DNA from: Rhodospirillales bacterium
Lineage (GTDB): Bacteria > Pseudomonadota > Alphaproteobacteria > SMXQ01
Assembly: GCA_018666775.1 (NCBI GenBank)
Contig: JABIXC010000002.1
Location: 1-64,000, forward strand
Reading direction: 5' to 3'
Length of the DNA stretch: 64,000 nucleotides
Shown: positions 4,506 through 25,952 of the stretch, piece after piece
Numbering within the stretch: position 1 is the first letter of the stretch
Layout: each line of letters begins with the position of its first letter
Translations under genes and position numbers: made by a program
Notes under the pieces: generated by a model
Told to the model about the DNA's origin: nothing
Database searches by the model: none
The model's input: the letters and a program-made list of their open reading frames with translations, nothing else

Positions 4506-4597
4506 TGGCGGAGGGAGAGGGATTCGAACCCTCGATACGGGTTACCCCGTATACTGATTTAGCAAACCAGCGCCTTCAGCCACTCGGCCACCCCTCC
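4506..4597 (-). tRNA. tRNA-Ser (anticodon GCT)
   Basis: On the minus strand a 7-bp acceptor stem (GGAGGGG with TCCCTCC), the D-arm sequence GTGGCCGAGTGGCTGAAGG, the anticodon loop TTGCTAA (anticodon GCT, reading AGC/AGU), a long class II variable arm (TATACGGGGTAACCCGTA) and the T-arm GGTTCGAATCC are all visible. A genomic CCA is present at 4506-4508. The long variable arm fits tRNA-Ser. The adjacent integrase suggests that the 3' part of this gene is the attachment site and was rebuilt on integration. Confidence 0.95.
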
Positions 4598-21978: not shown

Positions 21979-23385
21979 TTAGCCTCTGGCGGCATTGGAT
22001 GTCATTTCCAAATCATCAGATGACTCAACCACCTGGTTTCGGCCTGCCCGCTTGGCCGCGTAAAGTGCCTGATCTGTCCGCGCCATCAGTGCTTCTCCGG
22101 TAATGGAGTCCTTTTCAACAACGCTGAGACCGATACTGACGGTCACTGAAATATGCTCGCCCTCTTGTGCGCCCGTAAAGGGATAGCCCTCAATCACACT
22201 TCTTAAACGTTCTGCCACTTTCAGGGAAACCTGGCGACTGCACTCGGGCATAATGATGACAAATTCTTCGCCGCCCAAACGCGCCGCGGTATCAAATTCC
22301 CGAAGGTTGAGCACCATACAATTCGCAATCTCCTTGAGCACCCGATCACCAGCGGCATGACCATAGGTGTCATTGACCTTTTTAAAGAAATCAATATCCA
22401 GCATCAAAATGCTCAACGGTTTGCCGCTGTTAACCGCATCTGCAAGCGCCGTATCCAAATGGGCACAAAGGTAGCGGTGGTTATAAAGGCCTGTCAGATC
22501 ATCGGTAAGCGCCATGGACAGAGAGCGCTGGTAATTTTCCCGGAGCCGTTCACGATAGCGTTTCTGCTTCAGCTGTGAACGCACACGCGCTTTCACCTCA
22601 TTGGCATCAATTGGGCGGATCAGGTAGTCGTTAACGCCCAGCTCAAACCCCTTAACCAGATCACTCACTTCTTCTTCATCGATGATCAAAAGAATGGGCA
22701 GGGTCCGGTATTTTTCGATTGTCCGCAAATGCGAACAGAACCTCAAACCATCATCTTCATCAAGATGCCGGCTGGCCAGAATGATATCGAATGCCGCACC
22801 ATCAAGGCTCTCAACGGCATCCGCCGCCGTTTCCTTACACACAACGCTATGGCCATCCGAAGACAGCATATCTTGCAACCGTTCCCCGACATAAACATCG
22901 GGTTCCAGCACCAAAACATTGCCAGGAGAGGCATCATCAATGGCGAAACCGTCGCCGTCCATCATGCCGAACCGATCACATGTTTCTTCTCTCAAGCGCC
23001 ATTCATCCATGGCCCTTTTCATGCGCACCAGGGATCGAACCCGTGCAAAGAGTGTCAGGTCATTGACCGGCTTGGTCAGGAAATCATCGGCACCCGCTTC
23101 AATCCCTTTAACCCGATCATCGGTTCCGGAAAGTGCTGTAATCATAACCACCGGAATATGGGCTGTTTCCGGGTTTGCCTTCAGCCGACGGCAGGTTTCA
23201 AACCCATCCATTTCAGGCATCATGACATCAAGCAGGATAATGTCCGGGGAATCTGAAACAGCACATGCCAGGGCATCGGCGCCGCATTCTGCCATCATCA
23301 CCGTGTAATATTCAGCGATCAGTTTGGCTTCCAGCACCTTGAGATTGGTAGCAAGGTCATCGACGATGAGAACCCGAGCAGTCAT
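21979..23385 (-). CDS. pleD: PleD-type response regulator / diguanylate cyclase
   Basis: A 468-residue REC-REC-GGDEF protein that makes c-di-GMP when phosphorylated and controls polar development in Caulobacter. REC1 has the acidic pocket VDD and phospho-acceptor Asp53 (ILLDVMMPEMDG). REC2 (about 150-265) has lost the acceptor Asp (IILASRHLDEDDG) and acts as dimerisation adaptor, as in known PleD. The GGDEF domain has the active-site motif RLGGEEFVI and an intact inhibitory I-site REFD five residues before it, so product inhibition is expected. It starts 2 nt after the divK stop, forming the classic divK-pleD operon. Confidence 0.97.
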   Translation of the reverse strand: MTARVLIVDDLATNLKVLEAKLIAEYYTVMMAECGADALACAVSDSPDIILLDVMMPEMDGFETCRRLKANPETAHIPVVMITALSGTDDRVKGIEAGADDFLTKPVNDLTLFARVRSLVRMKRAMDEWRLREETCDRFGMMDGDGFAIDDASPGNVLVLEPDVYVGERLQDMLSSDGHSVVCKETAADAVESLDGAAFDIILASRHLDEDDGLRFCSHLRTIEKYRTLPILLIIDEEEVSDLVKGFELGVNDYLIRPIDANEVKARVRSQLKQKRYRERLRENYQRSLSMALTDDLTGLYNHRYLCAHLDTALADAVNSGKPLSILMLDIDFFKKVNDTYGHAAGDRVLKEIANCMVLNLREFDTAARLGGEEFVIIMPECSRQVSLKVAERLRSVIEGYPFTGAQEGEHISVTVSIGLSVVEKDSITGEALMARTDQALYAAKRAGRNQVVESSDDLEMTSNAARG

Positions 23386-23387
23386 GG

Positions 23388-23753
23388 TTAAGCCAAAATT
23401 CTTTGGATGGTTGAGATGAAATTATCCACCGAAATGGGTTTTGCGATATAGGCTTCACAGCCGCCTTCACGAATTTTTTCTTCATCCCCCTTCATGGCGA
23501 AAGCCGTCACGGCGATGATGGGAATGGATTTAAGATCATCATCAGCTTTCAGGATTTTGGTGATTTCCAATCCGGAAATTTCGGGGAGCTGGATATCAAG
23601 CAGGATTAAATCCGGATGATGTTCCCGGGCCAAGCCCACGGCTTCACGGCCATTTTTTGTCTGGACTGTTGCATAGCCATAGGCCTCCAAGAGATCATGG
23701 AACAACTTCATGTTCAGCTCATTGTCTTCAACGATCAAAACTGTCTGCACCAT
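23388..23753 (-). CDS. divK: single-domain response regulator DivK
   Basis: A 121-residue stand-alone REC domain with acceptor Asp53 ([13 protein letters not shown]), acidic pair VEDNE, the Thr in VTAFAMKGD and the Lys in YIAKPISVD. In Caulobacter DivK links the PleC/DivJ kinases to CtrA control. The ATG at 23753 matches the DivK N-terminus ([18 protein letters not shown]); an in-frame Met 7 codons upstream is possible. It is the first gene of the operon with pleD. The 185 bp upstream contain an inverted pair AACAA/TTGTT around 23869-23881 of unknown meaning. Confidence 0.93.
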
Positions 23754-23960
23754 AGGACCCCCTGATCCAATCATTTAAATGCTGTGCAAATATCTCCGTA
23801 AAACGCCATTTAGCGCACGCAAATACCCCAACATTCAGCAATCCACTCTGAATGTCCCCATATTGCAACAAATATTGTTAATTTTTGGTGATAGATCCCA
23901 AATTTAGGACTGTTTTATGCCCAAATCTCACTTCCAACAACTCTCAGTTGCACCCTGGAA

Positions 23961-24827
23961 TCAAGAGTCACATTTAGGGCGTTTCAGAGCCGTTATTTTT
24001 TCAAGGCTCGCATTGACACTGAAACTTCCGTAATCAAGCTCGAACCCATCGGCCACGCCGTTATCAAACAAACGAAGCCCCAGTTCGTAATCAGGGGTGG
24101 ATTTGGCACTTTTTGTCGGAAAAAAGGCCAGCCGCATATGCCATGAAGGGCGATTGGTCAGGCGGCGTTTGGCCCATTTTTTTGGAGGCGTTTTAATCGG
24201 TGCGAAAATCATCGCATTGACCTCTAAGGGGCCATCACTATTGGCCCCATCAAAAATCACCCGGTTGAGCCATTTTTTGCCTTGGCGCGCCGCACGGATC
24301 AGGTCAATCACATGAACCGTCGGGAAAATGGTTTTCCGGGACAAATCGAACCGCATCCCCTTGGGCCGGGAAAAATCTGCGTGCCCTTTGCCGCCTTTTC
24401 TCGCAAGCTTTGCCTTGCCCTCCAGATCATCGGTTACCGTCCCGTCGCGGGAATTTCGACTGGTAAACCGATATTTCAGGCCATCCAGCGTTTCAAAACT
24501 TGAAAAATTGGATTCCGTCGCAATGCGGTTTCCCTCATTGTCAAACAGGACCAGCTGAACCCGCTGTACCATCGTCCACCCGGAGCAGGACCTGGCCCAC
24601 TCCATCACCATGGTCCCTTTGGCACCCGTGATGTTGCCGCCTGAACGGACATGGCCAATTTTCATGGCATAGACCGCTTTATGAGGGGCCAGATTAATGG
24701 GTTTAGAGGCTGGCGCCGCATTCCCTGCCCCTGTCATCAATGGACCAAGCCCGATCAGGCCACCAAGCACGATCGCTTTGATATAGGGGACCCCACCTTG
24801 GCACCATTTATGTGACGATTTTTCCAT
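23961..24827 (-). CDS. eipB: periplasmic cell-envelope integrity protein EipB (DUF1849)
   Basis: A 288-residue exported protein. The ATG at 24827 has AGAGG 4-5 nt upstream and gives an N-terminal hydrophobic segment (AIVLGGLIGLGPLMTGAGNA) acting as signal peptide; a much longer frame upstream has no such support. The mature part matches DUF1849/EipB as I know it: LAPHKAVYAMKIG, then GTMVMEWARSCSGWTMVQRV and a long beta-rich body. EipB in Brucella is a periplasmic beta-spiral protein needed for envelope stress resistance. Two Cys (ARSCSGW and the near-terminal RPKCDS) could form the disulfide reported for that family. Single gene, divergent from the cyclase gene. Confidence 0.8.
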   Translation of the reverse strand: MEKSSHKWCQGGVPYIKAIVLGGLIGLGPLMTGAGNAAPASKPINLAPHKAVYAMKIGHVRSGGNITGAKGTMVMEWARSCSGWTMVQRVQLVLFDNEGNRIATESNFSSFETLDGLKYRFTSRNSRDGTVTDDLEGKAKLARKGGKGHADFSRPKGMRFDLSRKTIFPTVHVIDLIRAARQGKKWLNRVIFDGANSDGPLEVNAMIFAPIKTPPKKWAKRRLTNRPSWHMRLAFFPTKSAKSTPDYELGLRLFDNGVADGFELDYGSFSVNASLEKITALKRPKCDS

Positions 24828-24882
24828 ATGTCCTCTCAGGTTTCGGGCTGATTGGGCCCTGAATGAAGGGTGTTCATTCCTA

Positions 24883-24922: not shown

Positions 24923-25048
24923 ATGGCGCACCAACCAACACCCCATCATACGGCCCACCCCCCAGGCGGCAGTTCTTGCCGCATGTTGGGTGCAAAAATG
25001 ACTGAAAATTCAAAAATGGTAAAAAATTCCGATTCGAAAATCATATAA
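24923..25048 (+). CDS. possible 41-residue small protein
   Basis: The ATG has GGAG 7 nt upstream (CGGAGATAGAG). The product begins MAHQPTPHHTAHPPGGSSC: His/Pro-rich at first, then Lys/Ser/Asn-rich, with one Cys and no membrane segment. No family recognised. It occupies the otherwise empty 378-bp gap between eipB and the diguanylate cyclase, downstream of a sigma-54-like sequence. It could equally be non-coding leader. Confidence 0.25.
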   Translation: MAHQPTPHHTAHPPGGSSCRMLGAKMTENSKMVKNSDSKII

Positions 25049-25075: not shown

Positions 25076-25091
25076 TGGCACGGGCTTTGCA
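25076..25091 (+). promoter_or_regulatory. consensus sigma-54 (RpoN) promoter of the diguanylate cyclase
   Basis: TGGCACG (25076-25082), 4 bp, TTGCA (25087-25091): a full match to the -24/-12 consensus TGGCACG-N4-TTGCW, preceded by T. The start of transcription should be about 25102, leaving a leader of about 100 nt that contains a small hairpin (GTCTG/CAGAC, 25113-25126) and a 10-codon frame at 25155-25187. Transcription would need RpoN and an enhancer-binding protein. No enhancer motif was identified. Confidence 0.7.
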
Positions 25092-25205
25092 GATGAATTG
25101 GTGGCGGTATAGGTCTGCGATCAGACGGCCGCTGGCATTGATGAAGATGAATTAATGAAACCGCTAGACCGGTTAAAGAAACTTTAGATAGAGATTGAAA
25201 GCATC

Positions 25206-25952
25206 ATGACGCGCAAACCGTTTGACACCGAAAAGAGCACTGTTCCGCACGCTTCTGCGAGTGAGTCCTCCCTCATCTCTGATATTGGATCAACTGCGAG
25301 CAAGCTGCTGTCAACCATCAGCCAAGGCCGGAAGAACCGCAAAAAAACTGACGGCGAACTTGCCACGCCGCTGGTGGAGCAAGCGCTTGATGCCGCATCG
25401 GAAGTTGAAAACTTTCTGACCGAACAATCGGCGCGCATTGCCTATCTTGAAAACCTGACCCTGACCGATGAATTGACTGGCCTGTTCAACCGTCGCGGTT
25501 TCAACGAACAAGTGCGCCGCACCCTGGCATCCGCCAGTCGATATGGCGACGATGGTGTTCTGGTCATTTGCGATCTCGATAATTTCAAGGAAATCAACGA
25601 CACCTACGGTCATCTGGTGGGCGACATCGTTCTCAGGCATGTTGCCAAGGCCATTGAGGCCCAGGTTCGTGAAACAGATTTGGTTTCCCGCCTCGGCGGT
25701 GATGAATTCGCTGTTCTTATGGTCCAGACCAATTGGCGCGATGGCCTTAAACGCGCACAAATGCTCAACCGGGTCATCAACCGAACCATTGTTACCTATG
25801 ATGGCCACGAAATCACAGTCAGTGGCAGCCTTGGGGTTGAACCCTTTGGCCCTGCAGACGAAGAAACAAACCTGATTGCCCGCGCTGATATGGCGATGTA
25901 CGTCAACAAGCGCAAGAAGGCTTCCATCGCGCTCAACACGGCCGCAGAATAA
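25206..25952 (+). CDS. GGDEF diguanylate cyclase
   Basis: A 248-residue soluble cyclase making c-di-GMP. The first 75 residues are Ser/Lys-rich, followed by a short helical segment (about 60-85) that may dimerise. There is no recognised sensor domain or membrane segment. The GGDEF domain (about 85-240) is complete: DELTGLFNRRGF, DLDNFKEINDTYGHLVGD, the active site RLGGDEFAVL and an I-site RETD five residues before it. It should be active and feedback-inhibited. It is a single gene behind a consensus sigma-54 promoter, so its output is probably tied to an RpoN programme such as nitrogen or flagellar control (inference). Confidence 0.92.
   Translation: MTRKPFDTEKSTVPHASASESSLISDIGSTASKLLSTISQGRKNRKKTDGELATPLVEQALDAASEVENFLTEQSARIAYLENLTLTDELTGLFNRRGFNEQVRRTLASASRYGDDGVLVICDLDNFKEINDTYGHLVGDIVLRHVAKAIEAQVRETDLVSRLGGDEFAVLMVQTNWRDGLKRAQMLNRVINRTIVTYDGHEITVSGSLGVEPFGPADEETNLIARADMAMYVNKRKKASIALNTAAE

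Follow-up and report, generated by a model that had tools for sequence, protein, structure and literature searches.

A conserved sigma-54 promoter element and a predicted flagellar-type enhancer in front of a sensorless diguanylate cyclase gene of Alphaproteobacteria

When a diguanylate cyclase carries no sensor domain of its own, what could decide when it makes c-di-GMP? The question is raised by a gene in the 64,000-nucleotide stretch of DNA analysed here (the window), which a preliminary description had placed behind a consensus sigma-54 promoter and, on that basis, under transcriptional control by an RpoN-dependent activator. In Alphaproteobacteria, the coupling between the flagellum and c-di-GMP has been described at the protein level, with DgcB of Caulobacter as a stator-associated cyclase (in passages of PMC7885107 and PMC3764195).

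The cyclase gene and its surroundings

The gene is located at 25206..25952 on the plus strand and encodes a protein of 248 amino acids, identified by Pfam (GGDEF, 4.3e-41), by alignment and by a structure model. The ATG at 25206 is the first in-frame start codon downstream of the promoter element and fits the protein alignment. GGDEF was the sole domain recognised by Pfam, in agreement with the earlier statement that the protein has no sensor domain. The GGDEF motif at residues 164-168 and the I-site (RxxD) residues R155 and D158 were invariant in an alignment of 13 sequences, and judged by these residues the protein should be an active cyclase. In an AlphaFold2 model built from four sequences, helices spanned residues 20-47 and 53-86, the GGDEF fold was confident, and pLDDT was below 50 at residues 1-29. 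A short upstream ORF of 10 codons (ATG AAA CCG ... TAG) is also present at 25155-25187 of the window, within what should be the mRNA leader of the cyclase.

The divergent neighbour, at 23961..24827 on the minus strand, encodes an EipB-like envelope protein (Pfam EipB_like 5.7e-70, run on 23961-24830), with its ATG at 24827 placed by eye. Beyond it on the minus strand are a single receiver-domain protein at 23388..23774 (Pfam Response_reg), called DivK-type from its context, and a PleD-type protein with two receiver domains and a GGDEF domain (Pfam) at 21979..23385. The cyclase had been called an orphan, which is right for its domain make-up and not for its setting, as its start lies about 1.4-1.8 kb from the DivK-type and PleD-type genes. 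Of the 10 family genomes that carry the cyclase, 8 have a PleD-type match no more than 5 kb away and on the other strand, with the copy in the window confirmed by Pfam and the rest taken from match coordinates; in G003 and G008 there was no PleD-type match on the contig with the cyclase. A tRNA-Ser (gct) at 4506-4597 on the minus strand was the sole RNA gene detected in the window.

The promoter element

The sigma-54 -24/-12 element is located at 25076..25091 on the plus strand. Its sequence, TGGCACGGGCTTTGCA, is an exact TGGCACG-N4-TTGC followed by A, with GG at -24, GC at -12 and the correct spacing between them, as is required of a sigma-54 promoter. Transcription would be expected to start at 25102 on the same strand, 12 bases past the C of the -12 element.

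A single sequence match is weak evidence, and by count the site is unremarkable. There were 25 sites with two or fewer mismatches in the window, compared with 32 expected from shuffled sequences, which is fewer than chance would give. The exact element occurs at three sites in the 2.41 Mb genome, and the remaining two are both within predicted reading frames. At one mismatch or fewer, the pattern was found 66+53 times in the genome against 25+30 for the reversed control, an excess that may be caused by composition. Motif counts on their own (25 against 32, and three exact sites) are therefore uninformative as proof of a promoter, and the low number of near-matches and the two exact matches inside reading frames are in favour of a chance motif without function. 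The element can be judged to be above chance because it is conserved in front of orthologous cyclase genes.

An orthologue of the cyclase was present in 10 of the 11 family genomes, the window's own included and G009 being the exception (the order-level set consists of the same 11 genomes). The -24/-12 element is found at the corresponding position in all ten orthologues; in G001 and G002 it starts with AGGC or GGGC instead of TGGC. It has been kept although the remaining intergenic sequence aligns poorly, between genes whose proteins are 55-70% identical to that of the window. As a control, 15 of 20 loci of other GGDEF genes from the same family genomes were scored, and the element preceded none of the 15.

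Across the class, a profile search (E<=1e-55) detected the cyclase family in 92 of 385 genomes; further members exist or are likely below this cut-off, such as L357 of G212, which was recognised by eye. The class orthologues from outside the family numbered 87, of which 85 were scored; G232 and G145, which were among the weakest matches, were left out. The element weights were our own and follow the -24/-12 consensus. At a cut-off of 18.5 out of 20.7, which was chosen after the scores had been seen, 79 of the 85 carried the element. A score of at least 19 was reached by 78 of 85, whereas dinucleotide shuffles gave 0.8 on average and the reverse strand gave 1; a score of at least 18 was reached by 79 of 85, compared with 4.6 and 6, respectively. 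A Rhodospirillaceae MAG (L112) and Azospirillum sp. TSH64 (L113) have TGGCACG-N4-TTGCT, and Roseospirillum parvum (L128) has TGGCACG-N4-GTGCT. These named relatives of the gene suggest that the window is alphaproteobacterial. Good elements were spread over 40 of the 44 family-level groups. They were missing from six of the 85 orthologues (G308, G275, G283, G383, G068 and G376), and four of these six genomes have FlbD.

Conservation of the site in relatives had been suggested as a check on the promoter, and with the element carried by all 10 family orthologues and by 79 of 85 in the class, both the sequence and its conservation bear out the site upstream of the GGDEF gene. We consider it almost certain that 25076-25091 is a real promoter of this cyclase. 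Promoter and cyclase appear, from these sequences, to be a conserved unit and not an isolated case.

The enhancer

Upstream of the promoter is a feature that went unnoticed in the preliminary description. At 24968..24980, the palindrome GGCA-N5-TGCC (GGCAGTTCTTGCC) is predicted to be an enhancer (upstream activating sequence), being both conserved and phased with the promoter. In the window, its left edge is 108 bases before the -24 element and the gap between the two is 95 bases. In the family alignment, the block lies about 108-110 bases upstream of the -24 element and is exact in 8 of 10 genomes; the blocks of G003 and G004 each differ by one mismatch, and an exact copy lies closer to the promoter in G003. 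An exact copy within 220 bases upstream was found for 9 of 10 family and 36 of 79 class orthologues.

When the 79 class upstream regions were scanned for all 4-mer dyads with gaps of 0-12, GGCA-N5-TGCC was the top dyad (36/79), and the second, CGGC-N7-GCCG (20/79), is the same palindrome moved one base outwards. No exact copy was found in 43 of the 79 class promoters, and no copy with one mismatch or fewer in 10 of them. The exact copies, 43 from the class and 10 from the family (53 in all), were spaced from their promoters by helical turns, with a period of 10.7-10.8 bp; the phasing (R=0.64) was reached by none of 2000 random sets, in a statistic that ignores relatedness. Helical phasing of this kind is a requirement of an activator that loops from a sigma-54 enhancer. 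As the element is conserved in 40 of the 44 family-level groups and the enhancer is phased, a chance motif is very improbable here.

In the window's own genome (G000), GGCA-N5-TGCC occurs at 160 places per strand, whereas its reversed form occurs at 35. This excess may be due to composition or codon phase, and some of the places could be further targets. Being this common, the palindrome alone cannot serve as a list of a regulon.

The same enhancer in front of flagellar genes

The enhancer followed, after 40-70 bases, by TGGCAY-N6-TGC was searched for in the 385 class genomes. This pattern was present in 114 of them, compared with 18 for the reversed control (table count), and had no match in G000 because the gap at the window promoter is 95 bases. 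Reading frames were inspected behind 50 pattern sites (the first-listed loci and a hand-picked 20), some of which were inside reading frames, and 32 downstream proteins, chosen by eye from these 50 sites, were scanned. Among the 32, 18 were flagellar (FlgE, FlgF, FlgK and flagellin), and the others included one P-II protein, one transglycosylase, one TPR protein and one GGDEF-only protein resembling this cyclase (L357). The remaining 10 matched no family in the scan. In a FlbD-positive member of the window's own family (G001), a pattern site (C15:20341-20432) lies just before a rod-protein match on the same strand.

Six of the ten proteins without a match share an undescribed motif, and genes for a protein family with a INPLQHIPIVSTIYRE-like motif are found repeatedly, immediately downstream of the flagellar-type enhancer and sigma-54 pattern (L317, L321, L325, L335, L353 and L370; also L322, L362, L368 and L371). 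The family had no Pfam or NCBIfam match where scanned, and is perhaps an undescribed flagellum-related protein. At L323, in a genome with no FlbD match, the gene behind a pattern site is a nitrogen gene of the P-II (glnB/glnK) type.

In Caulobacter, the sigma-54 activator that acts on flagellar genes of this kind is FlbD (as stated in part of PMC3096577). It was found, at E<=1e-130 with NF050807, in 186 of the 385 genomes, some of which are incomplete, with no more than four candidates being scored in each; for G005-G010, activators were looked for with PF00158 instead. FlbD was present in 70 of the 92 genomes with the cyclase and in 116 of the 293 without it (Fisher p 1e-9, ignoring relatedness). 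Of the 114 pattern genomes, 84 had FlbD and 30 had no FlbD match.

Presumably, the ftr sites bound by FlbD in Caulobacter resemble the GGCA-N5-TGCC palindrome, which looks like a FlbD-type enhancer, and the upstream region of the cyclase gene suggests that this gene was ancestrally part of the flagellar sigma-54 regulon. Because the same enhancer precedes flagellar genes, the ancestral input was probably the FlbD flagellar programme, and we regard ancestral control of the cyclase by FlbD as likely.

No FlbD was detected at E<=1e-130 in 22 of the 92 cyclase genomes. Among scored cyclase promoters, the enhancer was about as frequent in FlbD-negative (8/16) as in FlbD-positive genomes (28/63), so FlbD may have been missed in some genomes, may have been lost recently, or the site may have a second reader. 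In the window genome, the promoter could be driven by another sigma-54 activator that is unassembled or too divergent for PF00158. Retention of the enhancer in FlbD-negative genomes and an assembly that is 98% complete in 19 contigs would allow for this. However, the PF00158 matches in G000 were NtrC, NtrX and three weak partial ones in long AAA proteins, and G010 shows the same set of two; we consider another activator improbable.

Candidate activators in the window genome

The window genome (2.41 Mb, 98% complete, 19 contigs) has rpoN, in a frame of 544 amino acids on C7 (PF00309, 7.3e-19). FlbD had no match in it at E<=1e-130, and PF00460 (flagellar rod proteins), the flagellar family searched, had none either. 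This bacterium appears to be aflagellate, and its lineage would have lost its flagella rather than lacked them from the outset. Within the family, G010 likewise has no rod-protein match and, by PF00158, activators of the NtrC and NtrX types only, and has kept the cyclase, the element and the enhancer. A fragment of PF00158 was detected in a short stretch of G003 and could be a cut activator.

Five PF00158 matches were found in G000, of which NtrC and NtrX, whose genes are close together on C17, were the only full sigma-54 activators. The GAFTGA motif is present in the NtrC of this genome and not in its NtrX. In Caulobacter, both NtrX and NtrC are without GAFTGA (part of PMC10274813). NtrC can be named as the present activator by elimination, because it is the sole GAFTGA activator found; this is a tentative choice, in which our confidence falls just short of even.

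The P-II promoters of the family have a different site, which speaks against NtrC as the protein that reads the enhancer. These promoters (L286-L312) have -24/-12 elements and palindromes like TGCCTAATATTTAGGCA, which are probably NtrC sites. The NtrC-type site drawn by eye from them, TGCC-N9-GGCA, was exact in 6 of 26 P-II promoters and present with one mismatch or fewer in 18 of 26; in the family cyclase promoters it was exact in none of 10 and within one mismatch in 3 of 10, the window's not among them. Conversely, exact GGCA-N5-TGCC was found in 1 of 26 P-II promoters versus 9 of 10 cyclase promoters. On these comparisons, the enhancer does not appear to be of the NtrC type.

A different reader of the enhancer, here or in general, could be NtrX, which would bind CAA-N2-5-TTG and control the promoter directly or with NtrC. 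NtrX is present in the window genome, and copies of the enhancer such as GGCAATTCTTGCC fit the NtrX site CAAN2-5TTG of S. meliloti (part of PMC9223101). In addition, NtrX of R. sphaeroides binds before a diguanylate cyclase/phosphodiesterase gene (part of PMC7240162), and Phaeobacter inhibens is non-motile when ntrX is mutated (part of PMC12363192). The CAA-N-TTG site of NtrX speaks for this reading; against it are the lack of GAFTGA in the NtrX of this genome and the flagellar genes that follow the same enhancer elsewhere. Moreover, the window's own copy is CAG-N3-TTG, and CAA-N3-TTG was found in 18 of 79 class promoters compared with 36 of 79 for GGCA-N5-TGCC. We therefore consider it improbable that NtrX reads the enhancer.

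It could also be that the promoter and enhancer are a relic in the window genome, with the gene being little expressed or expressed from another promoter. This would fit with the missing FlbD and rod-protein matches, with an enhancer that does not look like an NtrC site, and with G009, which also has no rod-protein match and has no cyclase orthologue. However, both the window genome and G010 have an exact element and an exact enhancer, and the motifs of the cyclase are intact. A relic is thus rather unlikely, though of greater weight than NtrX or an activator that escaped detection.

Discussion

The reading we lean towards, with modest confidence, is that of a flagellar-type sigma-54 cyclase unit in a lineage that has lost its flagella and FlbD, with NtrC as the most likely activator now. 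A family of sensorless cyclases would be spread across the class, its promoter often accompanied by the phased GGCA-N5-TGCC in the same way as those of hook, rod and filament genes. Ancestrally, FlbD would bind the enhancer after an early stage of flagellum assembly and loop to the RNA polymerase with sigma-54, switching on the cyclase together with the late flagellar genes, and c-di-GMP synthesis would thereby follow flagellum assembly. In the window lineage, flagella and FlbD would have been lost while the cyclase, promoter and enhancer stayed, and transcription would now need a remaining sigma-54 activator, most likely NtrC. FlbD binding, the order of expression, the take-over by NtrC and the output of c-di-GMP are what we infer within this scheme.

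RpoN-dependent transcriptional control, as first proposed, thus holds in kind, given the sigma-54 promoter, rpoN, an NtrC with GAFTGA and the conserved enhancer; what does not hold is the picture of an isolated case. The activator behind it can be specified to the extent that the ancestral input was probably flagellar, through FlbD, for which, as for rod proteins, this genome has no match. A bolder proposal is that Alphaproteobacteria share an undescribed unit, in which a sensorless cyclase belongs to the late FlbD/sigma-54 programme and has been taken over by NtrC or NtrX after flagellar loss; as a whole this is doubtful.

The arrangement resembles the FlbD/sigma-54 flagellar regulon of Caulobacter crescentus (FlbD, FliX and ftr enhancers) in having a sigma-54 promoter with an upstream enhancer, and the same enhancer and promoter precede flgE, flgF, flgK and flagellin genes in genomes of the class. 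It differs in that the target here is a diguanylate cyclase, in a genome without a FlbD or rod-protein match. By analogy, DgcB of Caulobacter would be the closest functional precedent, being an alphaproteobacterial diguanylate cyclase tied to the flagellum. However, in the passages of PMC7885107 and PMC3764195 that concern it, this tie is at the level of the protein (stator, activity) and not of the promoter. The active-site residue mutated in DgcB is E261 (same passages), compared with E167 in this cyclase, so the N-terminus of DgcB is longer. PleD shares the GGDEF domain and differs in having two receiver domains, compared with none in this cyclase.

Other c-di-GMP genes show parts of the arrangement. 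RSP_0335 of R. sphaeroides is similar in that an NtrC-family regulator (NtrX) acts at a c-di-GMP gene, but it is annotated as a cyclase/phosphodiesterase, and the site proposed in that part of PMC7240162 is GCAN9TGC, not GGCA-N5-TGCC. In E. coli, sigma-54 promoters have been predicted before the cyclase genes yeaJ and yhjK, but these are other proteins from another bacterial class, and the part of PMC3162934 that lists them makes no link to a flagellar enhancer. In the open-licence literature (PMC), no description was found of a cyclase family of this kind under the control of FlbD or sigma-54.

If a sensorless cyclase is preceded by a conserved sigma-54 promoter and a flagellar-type enhancer in 40 family-level groups, the coupling between flagellum and c-di-GMP would be partly transcriptional, and this would be testable in many flagellated strains. 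The genomes without FlbD or rod-protein matches raise the question of why a flagellar switch would be retained once the flagellum has been lost. If true, the take-over by NtrC or NtrX would have turned a flagellar signal into a nutrient one.
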